A stretch of 38,897 nt of DNA. It comes from Gammaproteobacteria bacterium (GTDB lineage: Bacteria > Pseudomonadota > Gammaproteobacteria > UWMA-0217). The stretch covers positions 1-38,897 of the forward strand of contig JALWKV010000202.1 in assembly GCA_027081275.1 (NCBI GenBank), read 5' to 3'. The notes beneath the pieces are model-generated. The model had not been told where the DNA came from, ran no database searches, and saw only the letters and a list, made by a program, of their open reading frames with translations. Shown here one piece after another: positions 4,507 to 38,773 of this stretch. How positions within the stretch are numbered: the stretch's first letter is position 1; each line of letters begins with the position of its first letter. A program made the translations under genes and the position numbers.

Positions 4507-4616
4507 CGTAGCCACTCAGCTCATTCGGAAATTCGCCTGCAACTGCTCAGATTGGCCCTGAAATACGTCAGTTCAAGGCAGAATCGCACCGCCATCCATG
4601 GCTCCTTGCGAAATAC
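4507..4616 (-). repeat. Family 1 palindromic repeat, copy A (partial, rearranged)
   Basis: Read on the minus strand, 4616-4525 matches the right-hand part of copy C (24546-24636). Shared stretches include GTATTTCGCAA, GAGCCATGGATGGCGGTGCG, ATTCTGCCTTGAACTG and ATTTCCGA. The left-hand part seen in copies B and C is missing from this orientation. Instead, positions 4507-4523 in plus orientation resemble the left end of copy B (CGTAGCCACTCAGCTCA against CGTGGCTACTCAGATCA, 14 of 17). The copy therefore looks like a rearranged or collapsed element near the lptD 5' end. Confidence 0.7.
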
Positions 4617-6837: not shown

Positions 6838-6962
6838 CGTGGCTACTCAGATCACCCCTGAAATCCGCCATTTCTGCGTTCGAAAATGGTCATTTACATT
6901 TTTGTAAACTCACATTTTCTGCCTTGAACTGACGGCTTTCAGAGGCAATCTGAGCAGCCACG
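6838..6962 (+). repeat. Family 1 palindromic repeat, copy B (intact ends)
   Basis: This 125-bp element starts 2 bp after the mrdA stop. Its ends are 15-bp inverted repeats with one mismatch: CGTGGCTACTCAGAT (6838-6852) and ATCTGAGCAGCCACG (6948-6962). The symmetry continues inward imperfectly, for example CCTGAAATCCG against CGGCTTTCAGAGG. The centre holds a smaller hairpin, TTTACATTTTTGTAAA. A core of about 50 bp (6867-6917) is almost identical to 24479-24527 in copy C apart from a 2-nt indel. It is AT-richer than the flanking genes. Transcribed in either direction it would fold into a long hairpin. Confidence 0.8.
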
Positions 6963-6994
6963 GCAATATTTCTGAACAAACAGGGTAAATACCT

Positions 6995-24456: not shown

Positions 24457-24621
24457 CAACTACTCACTCCTGAAGGCCGCCATTTCTGCGTTCGAAAATG
24501 GTCATTTACATTTGTAAACTCACATTTATGTCCATGGATGGACGGTATTTCGCAAAGAGCCATGGATGGCGGTGCGATTCTGCCTTGAACTGGCAGCTTT
24601 CAGAAGCAATCCGAGTAGTTA
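24457..24621 (+). repeat. Family 1 palindromic repeat, copy C (with ~50-bp insert)
   Basis: About 165 bp in the fmdB-napF gap. The end inverted repeats are AACTACTC (24458-24465) and GAGTAGTT (24613-24620), with imperfect symmetry inside. The left half matches copy B almost base for base from GCCATTTCTGCG to ACTCACATTT. Relative to B it carries about 50 extra bp holding two direct repeats of CCATGGATGG and the hairpin GTCCAT/ATGGAC. That extra part and the right half are shared with copy A. Similarity to A runs about 15 bp beyond the inverted end, to ATTTCCGA. Confidence 0.8.
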
Positions 24622-24663
24622 CAGAGACATTTCCGATTTCCCGGTCGAGCAGAATAACTGCAA

Positions 24664-25194: not shown

Positions 25195-25689
25195 TTACTT
25201 GCCGAAGGTGCTTTCCACCAAGGGCTGCGCATTGGTCTGCGGGCGATGACACTGCACACAAACATAACGCGCCGTACTGACCTTGTCGCCGTTCTTTACC
25301 GGGGACAAGCCCGCACTCGGCTTGCCGTAGGCGCCGGTCTCGTAGTGACTGGCCGGAATCGGCACGGGCTGGCCCTGGGCGCGCGGCTTGCCGATCTTGT
25401 CCGGCGTGTTATGGCAACTCATGCACATGTTGTTCTTCAACGTGATGGGCGTGAACCCATCGATCGAATGCGGGATCAGCGGCGGCGCCGTCGAGTATGA
25501 GCGCTGCGTCAGCTGGTTGCCGGCTCCCGGGGGCGCGCCATGCGATTCGTACTTGGGCGGCACCGGGGTATCGAAAACACTGCCCTTGTCGAGACCCAGG
25601 CTGTTTTCATCGATACTGCCCTTCGCCATGGCCGCGCATGCCGTAGTGACGACAACAATGGCACCGACAGTGAACAGACTTCTCTTCAT
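25195..25689 (-). CDS. napB: Periplasmic nitrate reductase diheme cytochrome subunit NapB
   Basis: NapB passes electrons to NapA in the periplasm. The 164-aa product has a signal peptide (~1-23) and two covalent haem sites, C89-M-S-C92-H93 and C144-V-Q-C147-H148. Further histidines (H50, H74, H115) can act as distal ligands. GAGGAG lies upstream of ATG 25689, and the start overlaps the napH stop as ATGA. Haem attachment would need the Ccm system encoded at 31535-38496. Confidence 0.95.
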   Translation of the reverse strand: MKRSLFTVGAIVVVTTACAAMAKGSIDENSLGLDKGSVFDTPVPPKYESHGAPPGAGNQLTQRSYSTAPPLIPHSIDGFTPITLKNNMCMSCHNTPDKIGKPRAQGQPVPIPASHYETGAYGKPSAGLSPVKNGDKVSTARYVCVQCHRPQTNAQPLVESTFGK

Positions 25690-26633
25690 ATCGTTTTCTC
25701 CTCTTTTGGAAGGACTGATTCCGGCTCCGTGATCGACGACCTCTTGATATGGGAGCGCAGATCGAACTTGAGCGTATCTTCGGGACAGACGGTAACGCAG
25801 CGACCGCAGTTGGTGCATTCACCGGACGCGACCATATGCGCGACCGAGGCCTTTTTGAGGTTGAGCACCTGGGGTTCCGGGCAGACGCGCGCGCATTCGC
25901 CGCAGTGCGTACAGGTCGGGGTATCGAAAGCGATGCGCAACTGCGCCACGCGCCCCACCTGCGCATAGAATGCGCCAAGCGGGCAGACATGCCCGCACCA
26001 GCCGTGCTTGAGAATCATCAAATCGAACAGAAAGATTCCGGCTACGGCCATCCAGCCGAGCCCGAGACCGAATACGACGCCCCGATGCGCCATGCTGATC
26101 GGGCTGACCCATTCGAAGGCAGCCACCCCCGTCAGCGCCGAGAGCACCAGCGTCAGCACGAGAATCGTGTAACGCAGGTTACGGTTGAAACTGATTGCAT
26201 TGGCAATGCCCAGCCTGTTGCGCAACCAGCCTGCGAAATCGGTGACCGGATTGATCGGGCACACCCAGGCACACCAAACCCGCCCGCCGATCAACGCATA
26301 GACCGCCAACACGATCAGCGCCCCGATCAGCACGCTGTTTTCCAGCCAGTGGCCGGTCAGCAGAATCTGCAGCACGGCGAAAGGATCGGCCAACGGAATC
26401 AGGCCCAGTATCTCTGAGCCAGAGAGATTGCCCGACAGAACCGGCCGCTCGAACAGTTTCCACTCCCAGTTGAACGTGCCGTAGAACAGCAGCAGCGTCG
26501 AGAATTGGAGAATGCGGCGCAGAATCATGTACCGCCACGCCTTCAGCTTGCCGCCCAGCGTCTTCGGCACCTGATAGTAGCGAATCGGCTTGCCGTTCGG
26601 GCCCAGCTTGATGTTCCGCTCGCTAGCCTGCAT
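25686..26633 (-). CDS. napH: Quinol dehydrogenase membrane component NapH
   Basis: NapH with NapG passes electrons from the quinone pool toward NapB/NapA. The 315-aa product has about four to five membrane helices, two CxxxCP motifs (VWCAWVCP and GWCGHVCP), and two C-terminal 4Fe-4S motifs (CTHCGECARVCP and CTNCGRCVTVCP). ATG 26633 has AAGGA 9 nt upstream. The ATG and next codons (ATG CAG GCT AGC) lie within the inverted end of the family 2 repeat that separates napH from napG. The first residues may therefore derive from that element. Confidence 0.94.
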   Translation of the reverse strand: MQASERNIKLGPNGKPIRYYQVPKTLGGKLKAWRYMILRRILQFSTLLLFYGTFNWEWKLFERPVLSGNLSGSEILGLIPLADPFAVLQILLTGHWLENSVLIGALIVLAVYALIGGRVWCAWVCPINPVTDFAGWLRNRLGIANAISFNRNLRYTILVLTLVLSALTGVAAFEWVSPISMAHRGVVFGLGLGWMAVAGIFLFDLMILKHGWCGHVCPLGAFYAQVGRVAQLRIAFDTPTCTHCGECARVCPEPQVLNLKKASVAHMVASGECTNCGRCVTVCPEDTLKFDLRSHIKRSSITEPESVLPKEEKTI

Positions 26634-26806
26634 TTCTCACCATCCTTCTACTGCGACGGCCCAATGACGCGCCCTGACCGGCTTTCGCCCGGTCGGAGTG
26701 CTCGACATAGTGTCGGCTATGCCTGCGCGCCCCTCGGTCGCGAAAGCCACTCGTGCCGCCCCCCTGAGCCGTCTCGCTACGAACGCTGGTGAGAAATGCA
26801 GGCTAG
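26623..26806 (-). repeat. Family 2 element between napG and napH, 20-bp perfect inverted ends
   Basis: The ends CTAGCCTGCATTTCTCACCA (26623-26642) and its exact complement (26787-26806) bound a 184-bp segment. Read on the minus strand, 26799-26676 aligns with 31166-31294 at roughly 85% identity by eye. Shared stretches include CCAGCGTTCGTAGC, AGACGGCTCA, GGCTTTCGCGACC and GCGCGCAGGCAT. An internal hairpin CGACA/TGTCG is present. The napG stop and napH start fall inside the opposite ends of the element. Confidence 0.8.
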
Positions 26807-27582
26807 TCATAGGAAATACCTTCGTTCAGATAATCCTGACCGGGCGCCGGACCTTGCGGACGTTTCGTCCCCTTGCCCTTGCGAGGAACCGGCTTGAAGT
26901 CCTGGGTGACCTTGGTATCGATCTTCCAGCCCAGCCGATAGTGCTCGCCGATCTTGCCCTGCACCAGCGATGGATCGAGTACCCGGATCGCCGCCTCCTG
27001 GGTGGGGCAGGCCTCCTCGCACATGCCGCAACCCGTACAGGCATCGCTGTGCACGATAGGCACGAACATCGCGTGTTTGCTGATCTTGCGCGGATTGGTT
27101 TCGGTCGTGATCGCCCTGTCCATCAGTGGACAGACGCGATAGCAGAGTTCGCAACGCAGACCCAGCCACGACAGGCAGTTCTCGATATCGATCACCGCCA
27201 GCCCCATGCGGGCATCGTCGATGTCGGTCAGCGCGGGATCGAGCGCCCCAGTGGGACAGGCCTTGACGCAGGGAATGTCCTCGCACATATAGCAGGGGAT
27301 ATCCCGTGGCTTGAAGAACGGAGTACCAATCGGCGCCTGGTCTCCCGGCGCCGCCAGCATCAGCGTGTCATAGGGACAATCGACGACGCACTGGCCGCAC
27401 TTGATGCACTTGGCGAGAAAATCGGGCTCATCCAGCGCACCCGGCGGCCGGATCGCCAGCACGGCCGCATTGGCCTGCTCCTTGATCAGGTAGGACCAGA
27501 TCAACCCGCCTGTTGCCGCCATGGCGACGCCCTGGCCGATGCGGGTAAGAAACTGCCGCCGCGCTTTCTCGGATTTGTTCAT
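26803..27582 (-). CDS. napG: Periplasmic ferredoxin-type quinol dehydrogenase subunit NapG
   Basis: A 259-aa Tat-exported iron-sulfur protein. The N-terminus has the twin-arginine motif RRQFLTRIG followed by a hydrophobic stretch. Four 4Fe-4S motifs follow: CIKCGQCVVDCP, CYMCEDIPCVKACP, CLSW..RCELCYRVCP and CTGCGMCEEACP. NapG works with membrane NapH to deliver electrons to NapB. The C-terminal tail after ~225 is Lys/Pro/Gly-rich. The stop codon at 26803-26805 lies in the inverted end of the family 2 element. Confidence 0.94.
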   Translation of the reverse strand: MNKSEKARRQFLTRIGQGVAMAATGGLIWSYLIKEQANAAVLAIRPPGALDEPDFLAKCIKCGQCVVDCPYDTLMLAAPGDQAPIGTPFFKPRDIPCYMCEDIPCVKACPTGALDPALTDIDDARMGLAVIDIENCLSWLGLRCELCYRVCPLMDRAITTETNPRKISKHAMFVPIVHSDACTGCGMCEEACPTQEAAIRVLDPSLVQGKIGEHYRLGWKIDTKVTQDFKPVPRKGKGTKRPQGPAPGQDYLNEGISYD

Positions 27583-27701
27583 TCGTTCCGAAACTCAAAA
27601 ACGCCCCCTCCCCGGCCTCCACAGAGAGGACCAGAGCGCCGGCTCGGGGGCCAGACTCGTTGCACCCACCTCCGTGACATCGACATCGCGCGCTTGCGCG
27701 G

Positions 27702-27729
27702 GGCGGAAAGTGCCACACTTCCCACCGCC
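27702..27729 (-). other. Intercistronic stem-loop between napA and napG
   Basis: On the minus strand the arms GGCGGTGGGAAGTG and CACTTTCCGCC pair over about 11 positions (two G-U type pairs) around a 3-nt loop. It lies 35 bp after the napA stop, in a 181-bp gap with no gene. No T-tract follows, so transcript processing or 3'-end protection of napA is more likely than full termination. Confidence 0.5.
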
Positions 27730-27763
27730 AATGGTCATGCCCGGAGTCAGGCATCCCGCTCGC

Positions 27764-30511
27764 CTACACCTTGGTGATCCTGACAGCGCACTTCTTGAAG
27801 TCGCTCTGCTTCGAGATCGGGCAAGTCGCGTCGAGCGTCACCTTGTTGATGAAAACGCTCTCGTCGAACCAGGGCACGAAAATCACTCCCTTGGACGGAT
27901 GGTTGCGACCCTGCGTCTCGACCCGCACCTTGACCTTGCCGCGGCGCGATGCCACTTCGACGACATCGTGACGATTGACGCCAATGCGCTTGGCATCTTC
28001 CGGATGCATGAAGACCAACGCTTCCGGAACGGCCCGGTTCAGCTCCGGCACACGGCGGGTCATCGTTCCCGAATGCCAGTGCTCCAGCACCCGGCCTGTG
28101 ACGAGCCAGAACGGATAGTTGTTGTCCGGCTGCTCGACCGGTGCGGCATAGGGGCGGAAGAAGATCTTCGCCTTGCCGGGCAGCTTGGTCTTCTCCTTCT
28201 TCGTGATCTTGTCCAGGTCGCCACTGGGCAATGCCTTCAGCGCGGGACCGTAGAACTCGAAGTCGCCATTCTTGACATAGGGATCGTACTTGGCGTTGAA
28301 GCGCCACAGCGTCTCCTTGCCGTTGACGACGGGCCAGCGCAGACCACGGACATCATCGTCGTAGTAACGCTCGAACTTATCCAGATCGTGCGCATGACCA
28401 CGACCGAAAGTGGCGTACTCTTCCCACAGCGCATGCTCAGGGAACCAGCCATCACCGAGCGCTTCGGCAATGTGGTTGGGATGCCCCTTCGTCAGCTCCT
28501 TGGGCGCGGGCCACGGGTACTTCTTCTTGTTCTCGGGCGTCGCGAACAGCACTTCGTACAGCGTCTGCTCGGGGTCGTACCCCATCTTCTTCGCCTCGTC
28601 GAGAACCGACGGCAGCTTGCCATCCTCGAAGCCCTCGGCTTTCAGCCCCGGCACCTTCTGCTCGCCCCAGACATCCTTCAGCTTGAAGCGCTTGGAGAAC
28701 TCAAGGATATGCCAAGTATCCCCCATGGCCTGCCCCGGAGGCGCCACCTGCTGCCGCCAGGCCTGGGTACGGCGCTCGGCATTACCATAGGCGCCCCATT
28801 TTTCGAAGATCATCGCGGCCGGCAGGATCAGGTCGGCGACCTTGGCCGAAATGCCGGGATAGCCGTCGGCGCAGACGATGAAGTTGTCCATTTCACGCGC
28901 TGCCTTGATCCAGTGGTTGGCGTTCGGCGTCGCCTGGAACGGGTTATTGACCTGCACCCAGGCGAACTTGATCTTGCCATCCTCCAGATCGCGCATGATC
29001 TTGACGATGTGGCTGCCCACTTTCGGATTGACAGTCTTGGCAGGCAACTTCCAGATCTTCTCGGCGAGATCGCGGTGCTTCTTCTTGAATACCACCATGT
29101 CGGCCGGCAAGCGGTGGGCGAAGGTACCGACCTCGCGCGCGGTACCACAAGCCGAAGGCTGGCCAGTCAGCGAGAATGCGCCATTGCCCGGCTTGCACTG
29201 CTTGCCGAGCAACAGATGGTTCATGTAGCACTGCTCATTGACCCAGGTGCCACGCTGATGCTGGTTGAAGCCCATGGTCCAGTAGGAAACGATCTTGCGA
29301 TTCTGGTCGCAGTAGTAGTCCGCCAGCGCTTTCAGCTTCTTCTTGAAATCGTCCAGCGACTCGTCGACATCGCCCTTGGCCAACTCGGCGACGAAGTCGA
29401 GCGTGTATGGCTCGACGCCCTTCTTGAAGTCCTCGAAGGAGATCATCCAGTGCTTGCCAGCCGATTTGGCGTTCTTCTGCTCGACCACTTCACCTTCCTT
29501 GCGGCGCTGGGCAATGGCCTCATACTTGTCTAATTTGACACGCTTCTGTTTCGCCAGAATGTCCTTTTCTTCCGGAAACCCCTTGGTATCGGTCGACCTC
29601 ATGCCGTAGCCAATGTCGTAGGGACCGGTGGCGAAAACGCAGTGCTTCTTGACGAAATCGTGATCGACGACGTCACGCTTGATGATTTCGCGGGCGATGT
29701 AGTTCTGAATCGCCAAGTCGGTGCTCGGCTTGAAGACGATGGTCATGTCCGCCAGTTCGGAGGGCATGTTCTTCAGCGTCGTCAGGTTGATGATGCGCAT
29801 CTTGTCATGCGTCAAGCGGCGGTTGGCGATTCGCGCCCAGAGAATCGGGTGCATCTCCGTCATGTTCGCGCCCCAGAGCACGGCTGTGTCGGTATGCTCG
29901 ATATCATCGTAGTTGCCCGCCGGCTCGTCGATGCCGAAGGTCTGGATGAAGGCGGCAACGGCCGATGCCATGCAGTGACGGGCATTCGGGTCGATGTTGT
30001 TGCTGCGCAGACCGGCCTTCATGAACTTGGCCGCCGCGTAACCCTCGTGGATGGTGTACTGGCCGGAACCGAAAATGGCGACGCCGGTCGGGCCAAGCTC
30101 CTTCAGCGCCGCCTTGCAGTGCTTTTCCATTTCATCGAAGGCGCGCTCCCAGCTGACCGGCTGGAACTTGCCCTTCTTGTCGAACTTGCCATCCTTCATC
30201 CGCAACAGCGGCTGGGTGAGGCGATCCTTGCCGTACATGATCTTGGCATTGAAGTAGCCCTTGATACAGTTCAGACCACGATTGACGGGCGCATCGGGAT
30301 CACCCTTCGTCGCCACGATCTTGCCATCCTTGGTTGCCACCATGATGCCACAACCGGTGCCACAGAAACGGCATACGCCCTTGTCCCACTGCCAATCCTT
30401 TTCCACATCGGCGGCGCCGGCCTGAGCCTGCGTCAGGGGAATGCCAACGGTCGCTGCGGTAGCAGCCGCCACATTGGCTTTGAGAAATTCACGACGGGTT
30501 TGCTTCATCAC
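27764..30511 (-). CDS. napA: Periplasmic nitrate reductase catalytic subunit NapA
   Basis: NapA is the Mo-bis-MGD enzyme that reduces nitrate to nitrite in the periplasm. The 915-aa product has a Tat signal (TRREFLKA), the 4Fe-4S cysteines C47, C50, C54 and C82 ([15 protein letters not shown]), and the molybdenum ligand C180 (NARHCMAS). Conserved blocks are [46 protein letters not shown] and [10 protein letters not shown] at the end. It is about 85 residues longer than E. coli NapA (828 aa). Extra residues sit around 310-350, ~640-660 and ~795-815, as in the long NapA of epsilonproteobacteria. GGAGG lies just upstream of the paired ATGs at 30511 and 30508. Confidence 0.97.
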
Positions 30512-30531
30512 TGACCTCCGAGGGTAATCGA

Positions 30532-30858
30532 TTAATCTTGAAGATATTCCGGGACGCAGGCTTGCTGCTGGGGAAGACCGGTCATCGCGTCCAGATCTTC
30601 GGGAATTTCCTGAACAAACTGCTCGTCCTCCGCGAAATAGTGGTAGACCATCTCCGCGAAGGTGACGTCCGGCAGCGCCTTGATCGCCTTGAGCCCTTCG
30701 ACTTCATCGGCGATCGTCTCCGCCTCCTGCACGACAACGATGCGGTTCTTGTCGTGATCGACGTTGTGGACCTCGACGCCGGGCAATGCATTGAGTCGTT
30801 CGACGCATGCATCGACCTTTCCGGGAAATGCGGCAACGACAATACCTGATAGGTTCAT
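30532..30858 (-). CDS. napD: NapD chaperone for NapA
   Basis: NapD binds the NapA twin-arginine signal and holds back export until the molybdenum cofactor is inserted. The 108-aa product starts [14 protein letters not shown], with the family's ferredoxin-like repeat, [18 protein letters not shown] and [18 protein letters not shown] 30858 is the family start; in-frame extension to 30915 adds unrelated residues. It is the first gene of napDAGHBF and lies about 75 bp downstream of the predicted transcription start. Confidence 0.93.
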
Positions 30859-30938
30859 AGAGCAAGTCTCTGGTGTATTGGCCTGAATTGCGGGAACAAT
30901 GACCGGCCCCGACAATGGACCGATCTTTTCTGGAGGAT

Positions 30939-30980
30939 AAATTAAGCGCCCCCCGCCACATCCGCCTTAACCTATGTCAA
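30939..30980 (-). promoter_or_regulatory. FNR/CRP-type site plus -10 box for the nap operon
   Basis: On the minus strand TTGAC-ATAG-GTTAA (30980-30967) is a near-palindrome close to the FNR consensus TTGAT-N4-ATCAA. A -10-like TAATTT lies at 30944-30939. If the site is centred at -41.5, as in class II FNR promoters, transcription would start near 30932, exactly the right distance from that -10 box. This would make napDAGHBF oxygen-responsive. The regulator (FNR, Anr or Dnr) is inferred. Confidence 0.6.
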
Positions 30981-30991
30981 CTTTTCCCAAA

Positions 30992-31015
30992 TAAGCCCAG
31001 ACCCATCAGGGCTTA
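30992..31015. other. Small hairpin upstream of the nap promoter
   Basis: TAAGCCC (30992-30998) and GGGCTTA (31009-31015) form a perfect 7-bp stem with a 10-nt loop, 12 bp upstream of the FNR-like site. It could be a regulator site or the end of a neighbouring repeat; I cannot tell. Confidence 0.3.
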
Positions 31016-31534
31016 CCCCGCCAGATGACATACATCGACCCACCGCAGCGCAGGAATAGCCTCGTTACTTGCAGGCGTTCTCTTGCACGGCAACGCGAGC
31101 GTTGCCACGCCGGCTTCAGCAGAGAAGCACGCCACCACCCGCGAGCCCTCCGGCAACGGCGGCCCGCATTTCCCGCCAGCGTTCGTAGCAAGACGGCTCA
31201 AGGAGGGCGACATGGGAGGCTTTCGCGACCTAAGGAGCGCGCAGGCATGGCCGACGCCATATCGAGCGCTCCGAACGAGCGAAAGACAAGCCGGATCTCG
31301 CACGTGCGGACGTGACATCAGCCCCACGGTCGTACCATCGAGACGTTTCGGTACGCCTATGCGGAAGTTCTCCTGCAGTCGATTCCCGACCACCGCAGTT
31401 ACGGTCCTGTCAGAAATCGACGATCCGCTCGCGACGAGTGTGACAGTCGGTTATCCTTTCGCGTCCCGCGTCAACGACCGACTGTTCATGCGCCGCATTC
31501 CCGACACAACCGACAACGCCGGATCCCGTTGACG
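31016..31534. other. Divergent nap/ccm spacer with repeat, no gene
   Basis: This 519-bp spacer lies between the nap promoter region and ccmA. It contains a short perfect hairpin GGCAACGC/GCGTTGCC (31089-31106) and family 2 repeat copy 2 (31166-31294). Open frames crossing it (31083-31532 plus, 31013-31393 minus) are made largely of the repeat and look non-coding. The ccm promoter must lie in 31295-31534, but I see no convincing hexamers. Confidence 0.55.
31166..31294 (+). repeat. Family 2 repeat, copy 2
   Basis: About 129 bp matching the minus strand of 26799-26676, with differences mostly transitions and one single-base indel. It begins GCATTTCCCGCC and ends near CAAGCCGG. Unlike the napG-napH copy, I find no matching inverted right end, so it is truncated or diverged on that side. 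The two copies lie about 4.4 kb apart in opposite orientation and bracket napG, napA and napD. Confidence 0.75.
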
Positions 31535-32158
31535 ATGCTCGAAGTCCACGGCCTGACCTGCGAACGCGGCGAACGCCTGCTGTTCGAGAATCTGAGCTTC
31601 TCCGTGCGCAGCGGCGAGCTGCTGCGCATCGCCGGCGTCAACGGCAGCGGCAAGACCACGCTGCTGCGCCTGCTCTGCGGCCTGGCGCTGCCGGACGAAG
31701 GCGAGATCCACTGGGAAGGCAAGAAGGTCAGAACGACCAGCGAGCAGTGGCGACGCACGACCAGCTACATTGGCCACAATCTTGGCGTCAAGCTGGAGCT
31801 GACGCCGCTGGAGAACCTCCAGTTCGCCCGCGCCATCAGTGGCGCCAGCAGCACCGAACCGCTGGAGGCGCTGCTCGACAAGGTGGGGCTGTACGGCTTC
31901 GAGTACGACCCCTGCCGCACGCTGTCGCAGGGGCAGCGCCGTCGCGTGGCGCTGGCGCGGCTGATGTTCACGCGCACGCCGCTGTGGATTCTCGACGAGC
32001 CTTTCGTCGCGCTCGATGTCGCCGGCATCGCCTTCGTCGCCGACCTGCTGGCGCGCCAGACCGACGCCGGCGGCATGGTCATCCTGACCACGCACCAGGA
32101 CACGCCGCTCGAGAACAAGATCATCAAGGAACTCCACCTCGATTCGGGCAACAGTTGA
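31535..32158 (+). CDS. ccmA: Haem exporter ATP-binding protein CcmA
   Basis: ATPase of the CcmABCD complex, which releases haem-loaded CcmE for cytochrome c assembly. The 207-aa product has the Walker A GVNGSGKTTL, the ABC signature LSQGQRRRVALARL and the Walker B LWILDEP, with the H-loop TTHQ. ATG 31535 starts as in relatives (MLEVHGLTCERGERLLF); a TTG two codons upstream is possible. First gene of the ccm operon, followed 2 bp later by ccmB. Confidence 0.94.
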   Translation: MLEVHGLTCERGERLLFENLSFSVRSGELLRIAGVNGSGKTTLLRLLCGLALPDEGEIHWEGKKVRTTSEQWRRTTSYIGHNLGVKLELTPLENLQFARAISGASSTEPLEALLDKVGLYGFEYDPCRTLSQGQRRRVALARLMFTRTPLWILDEPFVALDVAGIAFVADLLARQTDAGGMVILTTHQDTPLENKIIKELHLDSGNS

Positions 32159-38581: not shown

Positions 38582-38773
38582 ACCCTATTGTTGCATAAAT
38601 TTTAGTCTTAACGCGCAGGAAACGCTGTAATAGTAGCGTTTGACGCTATTTTCCGGTCTGTCGCTAGACCTCACCATTGGTGAGGTCTAGCGACAGACCG
38701 GAAACAGGTATCAAGCACCTATATTTACAGCGTTTCCTTGCTTTGACACACGAGGTTTATGCAACGTTAGGGT
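38582..38773. repeat. 192-bp nested palindromic element
   Basis: Three nested inverted repeats share one centre. Outer: ACCCTA-tt-GTTGCATAAA (38582-38599) with TTTATGCAAC-gt-TAGGGT (38756-38773). Middle: AGGAAACGCTGTAA (38617-38630) with its exact complement at 38725-38738. Inner: a 27-bp perfect arm (38650-38676) with its complement (38678-38704), separated by a single T. It is AT-richer than the genes. No open frame of useful size exists. The layout fits a MITE or the fused ends of an insertion sequence; the family is unknown to me. Confidence 0.75.

Follow-up and report, generated by a model that had tools for sequence, protein, structure and literature searches.

A MITE with IS1380-type ends at the napG/napH junction of a gammaproteobacterium and an apparent element-borne start of napH

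The usual view of MITEs is that they break genes, carry promoters or insert peptides in frame. Among the closest described systems, MITEAba12 is short, palindromic and uniform in length and has its ends in common with ISAba12; start codons near its ends were noted as able to fuse to neighbouring coding sequences (PMC6382973). Rickettsia palindromic elements (RPEs), which are about 150 bp long and also palindromic, insert into genes in frame, and both MITE-CDS fusions and RPE in-frame insertions are already known (PMC10969869). In termination-reinitiation coupling, adjacent genes have overlapping or near-touching stop and start codons (PMC10666635, PMC6728339).

The element described here, a 176-bp palindrome between napG and napH in the window (i.e., the whole 38,897-nt stretch of DNA that was analyzed), resembles each of these systems in part. 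MITEAba12 makes 9-bp duplications and has stops in all six frames, whereas our element is flanked by 4-bp duplications and three of the six consensus frames of its family are open; moreover, no native gene with a replaced start is documented for MITEAba12. RPEs add peptide within proteins, whereas our element appears to be tolerated near gene starts mainly by providing a leader, a stop and a new start, outside the protein. Unlike described coupled junctions, the stop-start pair ahead of napH (TGA GAA ATG) rides on a transposon end. In the literature searched, which covered few subscription papers, we found no description of repeated replacement of native starts by a transposon end at overlapping junctions with a coupling leader. 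No paper was found on IS1380, MITE and CTAG in combination, and a text search for the motif ATTTCTCACC gave no relevant-looking match among the matches listed.

Insertion and target duplication at the ancestral napG/napH overlap

The minus strand of the window carries napA (27764-30511), napG (26803-27582) and napH (25686-26633), in this order, and NCBIfam equivalog models confirmed the identities of NapG (NF007012, 332 bits) and NapH (NF007013, 356 bits). Two inverted arms at 26623-26642 (CTAGCCTGCATTTCTCACCA) and 26787-26806 (TGGTGAGAAATGCAGGCTAG) are reverse complements of each other and, as a previous sequence-only reading had stated, perfect over 20 bp; that reading had also correctly placed the napG TAG in one arm and the napH ATG in the other, which also holds CAG, GCT and part of AGC. 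The outermost CTAG of each arm is a target-site duplication; the element body therefore spans 26627-26802 (minus strand; ends CC(T/C)GCATTTCTCACC ... GGTGAGAAATGC(A/G)GG) and the true terminal repeat is 16 bp. The repeat on the napH side (26627-26642; minus strand TGGTGAGAAATGCAGG) contains the napH ATG (26633-26631), and the repeat on the napG side (26787-26802) is perfectly complementary to it. The CTAG on the napG side (26803-26806) includes the napG TAG (minus strand 26805-26803), while the CTAG on the napH side (26623-26626) is read GCT AGC, i.e., as napH codons 3 and 4. The first two residues of NapH (M-Q) would thus come from the element and the next two (A-S) from codons across element, target duplication and host sequence.

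A genome of the same genus (G001) has a clean empty site (...TCCTATGACTAGCGAGACC...) with a lone CTAG, in which GAAGGTATCTCCTATGACTAGCGAGACCAAAGTG corresponds to ...TATGACTAG, the 176 bp and CTAGCGAGCGG... in the window; in a fuller alignment, GAACGAAGGTATCTCCTATGACTAGCGAGACCAAAGTGAAGCTGGGTCC in G001 is matched on the minus strand of the window by GAACGAAGGTATTTCCTATGACTAG, the 176 bp and CTAGCGAGCGGAACATCAAGCTGGGCCC. In this empty site the napG stop and the napH ATG overlap by 8 nt (ATGACTAG), so that the earlier view of napG and napH as normally adjacent is correct as to neighbourhood and incomplete as to the ancestral overlap. Comparison with a relative lacking the element, which had been proposed as a test, gave a split outcome: NapG ends in GISYD and stop in both genomes, whereas the N-terminus of NapH is MTSETKVKLGPNG in G001 and MQASERNIKLGPNG in the window. 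In two further genomes without the element (G004 and G018), NapG and NapH touch or overlap too, and their NapH N-termini differ again. The G001 napG itself seems to be frameshifted near codon 195, where two frames join (L196, about 2083-2090), through either a mutation or an assembly error.

Judged from these alignments, the napG stop is ancestral and part of the duplicated CTAG target, and the napH start was supplied by the element, with ATG CAG in place of the ancestral ATG ACT. The proposal that a domesticated element supplied both the end of napG and the start of napH thus holds for the insertion and the napH start and fails for the napG end, as the TAG lay in the pre-existing CTAG target and GISYD and stop are also found in G001. 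At the level of aligned sequence, the comparisons in this and the last section establish the insertion, the target duplication, the ancestral arrangement, the replacement of the start and its recurrence at radA and a third gene pair. This assembly does break at such repeats, and many copies lie at contig ends; a false join of napG and napH is nevertheless already largely refuted and extremely improbable, as the element lies well within the 38.9-kb contig, napG and napH are as in G001 in order and base, and the target duplication is exact.

A dispersed MITE and its IS1380-type relatives

A search of the same genome found approx. 41 places with 87-92% identity to the element and more than 100 matches to its terminal motif, and at least 43 near-complete unique copies could be extracted. 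The body is mostly 176 bp, and 176-bp copies differ from the consensus by a mean of 4%. Flanks were paired as CTAG/CTAG in 25 copies, TTAA/TTAA in four and CCAA/CCAA in one; as the 4-mers pair up as whole units, they represent a target duplication of 4 bp that favours YTAR-like sites. The element is well below the usual upper length of MITEs (about 600 bp), has no transposase coding capacity, bears perfect 16-bp terminal repeats in the napGH copy, duplicates its target (one CTAG in the empty site; paired flanks elsewhere) and occurs in many near-identical dispersed copies. By these features it is a MITE, and its ends are of the IS1380 type.

Most copies in this genome supply no gene start. For approx. 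10 further copies a plausible gene terminates exactly at the stop codon of the target, and the napG stop within an arm is therefore ordinary for the family. Some copies are nested in the edges of other copies (contigs C143 and C45). One copy (L011; contig C149, 13960-14143) apparently lies in frame inside a short ORF, which reads DFLLA, 60 codons and LALAKANDIDPYSYDYEM without a stop, and looks like the in-frame mode of RPEs. Long outward ORFs at four copies (L003, L015, L017 and L215) seem to begin further in and were not counted as supplied starts, and neither were ORFs at L012, L023 and L030, which resemble antisense ORFs. The window holds a second copy (31162-31285, plus strand), which is decayed, incomplete and inverted relative to the first, with inverted-repeat matches of 80-87% complementarity; it is intergenic, between napD (minus strand, from 30532) and an ABC-transporter ATPase gene (plus strand, 31529). 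G001 carries copies at 75-77% identity and G002 one at 87%, while none were found in the 34 other relatives searched.

At least 116 stretches, spread over many phyla, carry the terminal repeat, mostly as part of short palindromes 76-386 bp long, among which a class of 176-178 bp recurs. In other genomes, transposases of the PF13701 family (IS1380-type, DDE_Tnp_1_4) sit between the same ends (L178 and L185) or beside one of them (L180, L187, L188, L189, L191 and L192). For example, the L178 element (genome G039) runs from CTAGCCCGCATCGCTCACCA to TGGTGAGATATGCGGGCTAG over about 1.75 kb with CTAG at both sides, and at L180 (genome G040) MRTECNPTRMRF... lies next to GGTGAGAAATCCGGGCTAG, with an ORF (MRTECNPTRMRFARLKGRDVVADFEGGRMTSDAGALLL) that belongs to PF13701. 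The napGH element shares with these PF13701-carrying elements both the terminal repeat, CTAGCC(C/T)GSATTTCTCACC(A/G) with CTAG outside, and the 4-bp flank, and differs from the IS1380 family in being only 176 bp long and in having no transposase gene. A profile search found no PF13701 transposase in the assembled genome of this organism or in G001-G004, and the transposase was thus identified through other genomes. Shared ends and flank length suggest that the MITE was moved in trans by an IS1380-type transposase. IS630 (2-bp TA duplication) and IS5 (which also uses YTAR) were rejected as parents, as the 4-mers pair whole and DDE_Tnp_1_4 is the family of the transposases that accompany these ends; a REP/RAYT-type repeat was ruled out by the target duplication and the empty site. 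Neither the element nor the IS end had a match in a plasmid collection.

A longer element that shares these ends and has an ORF beginning MNTKCTPEV is also present several times in this genome; every copy is broken off at a contig end, and the body of this element is missing from the assembly. The contig ends concerned (C145, C120, C45, C22, C96, C152, C239 and C251) point to two different longer elements, each with IS1380-type ends and each collapsed there; in one, the MNTKCTPEV ORF begins after an inverted repeat, and the other runs on CATTGCCCGTCATCCCGCC....

The 176-178-bp class forms a cross-phylum class of hairpin MITEs (L048, L053, L076, L105, L116, L144, L155 and others) with common ends, a CTACTGCG motif and compensatory changes in a central hairpin (CTCRAC-RTAST..loop..ASTAY-GCCTGCG). 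Across ten distant elements, two-sided compensatory changes were observed in 24 of 52 stem pairs, which indicates that the family preserves the overall palindrome, whether for transposition or for some other reason.

The element-borne start, its leader and the predicted hairpin

Read outward, the arm on the napH side is AGAAGGATGGTGAGAAATGCAGG, with a Shine-Dalgarno sequence (SD), AAGGA (26643-26647, minus strand), 9 nt ahead of the ATG. The predicted duplex with the anti-SD is -9.2 kcal/mol at this start as compared to -3.9 kcal/mol at the ancestral start. Only a gene whose frame reads the target as xCT AGx can use the arm ATG in frame, and napH is such a gene. The insertion adds 180 nt, i.e., 60 codons, and the old napH ATG (26810-26808), still behind its old SD, opens a leader ORF of 57 codons (26637-26810, minus strand; MTSLHFSPAF...AVEGW) across the whole element. 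This leader ends in TGA GAA ATG CAG GCT AGC, its TGA (26639-26637) lying 3 nt ahead of the new ATG in the same frame, and hence within the few nucleotides expected for reinitiation. From the napG stop to the new napH start, on the other hand, the gap is 169 nt. Coupled genes must overlap or nearly touch, and coupling almost disappears once the gap reaches about 20 nt (PMC10666635); napH would therefore be uncoupled unless the leader is translated.

The predicted fold of a 184-nt transcript has -113.7 kcal/mol as compared to -69.5 ± 4.2 kcal/mol for shuffled sequences (z = -10.6); this fold and the recurrence of the same 176-bp body in the extracted copies show that the repeat is not due to chance. 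The start of napH lies within the predicted stem, consistent with the suggestion in the sequence-only reading that a hairpin in the message could hide it. Opening the start would cost 37.3 kcal/mol in naked mRNA, against 13.1 kcal/mol in G001; the predicted cost falls to 10.1 kcal/mol with a ribosome on the napG stop and to 8.0 kcal/mol with a leader ribosome at the TGA.

In our explanation, an IS1380-group MITE (176 bp, 4-bp YTAR target duplication) inserted at the CTAG within the 8-nt overlap. The napG gene retained its stop as part of the duplicated target, and 60 codons of inserted DNA separated napH from its old start. Since the terminal repeat of IS1380 reads outward GGTGAGAAATGCRGG, i.e., an SD-like stretch followed by ATG, in frame with any gene that reads xCT AGx, the insertion also provided napH with a new start. 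In naked mRNA the hairpin would lock this start. A ribosome finishing napG would restart at the old overlapping ATG, translate the leader and melt the stem, although a ribosome resting at the napG stop, which lies in the 5' arm, might melt it as well; the leader ribosome would then terminate 3 nt ahead of the new ATG and reinitiate on napH. Rather than destroying the coupling of napG and napH, the element would thus have rebuilt it. Given a leader that ends at the new start, its translation followed by reinitiation is the likely coupling mechanism, and an insertion that gave napH an element-borne start with leader-mediated coupling is, as a whole, in our judgement probable and the best explanation.

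Another explanation, which we consider rather doubtful, is that this is an ordinary, near-neutral or mildly harmful MITE, that the arm ATG is an accident of a transposase-binding sequence, and that the hairpin blocks or strongly lowers NapH production in a strain that tolerates it. Electrons can reach NapAB by several routes, of which NapGH is one; the predicted opening cost in naked mRNA is large, the ATG and TGA lie inside a terminal repeat conserved by transposition, and only a minority of copies supply a start. However, the napH ORF is intact (315 codons, with intact cysteine motifs), no other plausible napH start lies between the TGA and the conserved codons, and radA, which is widely conserved in bacteria, underwent the same replacement and is still intact. 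It is less probable again that the hairpin was kept as a regulatory device that sets the ratio of NapG to NapH, by attenuation or by processing of the transcript between the two genes. The very stable fold and the covariation of the stem across distant elements would suit such a device; the covariation, though, belongs to the whole mobile family and not to the napGH site, many copies occur elsewhere, including at gene ends and within other copies, and an Rfam search of window positions 26000-32000 gave no match at gathering thresholds.

If leaders were selected, open frames should exceed those expected under mutation. The frame was open in all 36 of the 176-bp copies on one strand and in 33 of 36 on the other, as compared to 31.1 and 30.2 expected when the consensus is mutated with the observed spectrum (P = 0.008 and P = 0.14, respectively, both optimistic as the copies are related). 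Openness is thus weakly above neutral expectation and hints weakly at selection. A length of 180 nt as a multiple of three was rejected as a general design, as lengths vary widely in other genomes and only the 176-bp class has this property. We consider it unlikely that the family has been shaped to be harmless in any frame, as a mobile stop/leader/restart cassette that spreads through operons in many phyla by preserving the genes it hits. Under this tentative reading, a target read as C TAG would provide an exact stop, xCT AGx would provide a leader on both strands to TGA-GAA-ATG with the host frame restored, and CTA Gxx would be fully open in one orientation, adding 60 residues.

Recurrence at radA and other genes

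At a second locus in this genome (L014), the upstream gene ends in GEG and TAG, followed by the element and by radA with ATG CGG GCT AAG CTC. In G001, radA starts with ATG GCG AAA GCT AAG (MAKAK) and overlaps the upstream stop TAA by 14 nt. The L014 gene is intact, its product aligning to TIGR00416 from residue 3; the flanks differ by one base (CTAG/CTAA), and a 1-nt insertion shifts the end of the leader to a TAA that overlaps the new start. At a third gene pair (L005), with the element in the other orientation, the sequence reads MRARVIVALLLL..., the product begins MRARVIV, and the target directly follows the end of the upstream gene, RPW and stop (TGG TAG). In G001 the homologue, which is 56% identical, starts ATGGTAATT over its upstream stop, likewise after RPW; the junction is not a base-for-base empty site. 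The L005 copy has the same leader as the napH copy, and the L005 protein, a candidate BatD-like protein, has no match in Pfam or NCBIfam. With the G001 homologues as reference, the overlapping starts of both radA and the L005 gene were replaced by this element.

A uracil-DNA glycosylase family gene (L025; MQANAECFNPHCRRC) probably also takes its start from the element; the sequence ahead of the element reads ATG CTT AA, and the G001 homologue diverges at the N-terminus, leaving no clean empty site. In other genomes, ORFs from the arm ATG match near the N-termini of ThyX (L104), a Nudix protein (L100), a hydantoinase (L127) and a PQQ-type protein (L125), and these starts were probably supplied by the element too; at L104 and L100 little beyond the start-bearing end is still visible.

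These loci show that a transposon terminal repeat with SD-like bases and an outward ATG repeatedly became a native start (napH, radA and others) at overlapping, probably coupled junctions. They provide a testable case in which translational coupling may survive a 180-nt insertion via a transposon-encoded leader, and a warning for annotation, as a transposon may be the source of N-termini of the form M(Q/R)A(S/R/K/N) that follow GGTGAGAA.

The window also contains another dispersed repeat family, unrelated to the MITE, at 4524-4616, 6852-6976 and 24464-24636 (78-94% identity between copies). Finally, a palindrome at 38629-38725 has 48-bp arms that are 79% complementary, with a single nucleotide between them; on contig C145 the IS1380-type end is flanked by similar sequence, which indicates that the IS there sits in another repeat.
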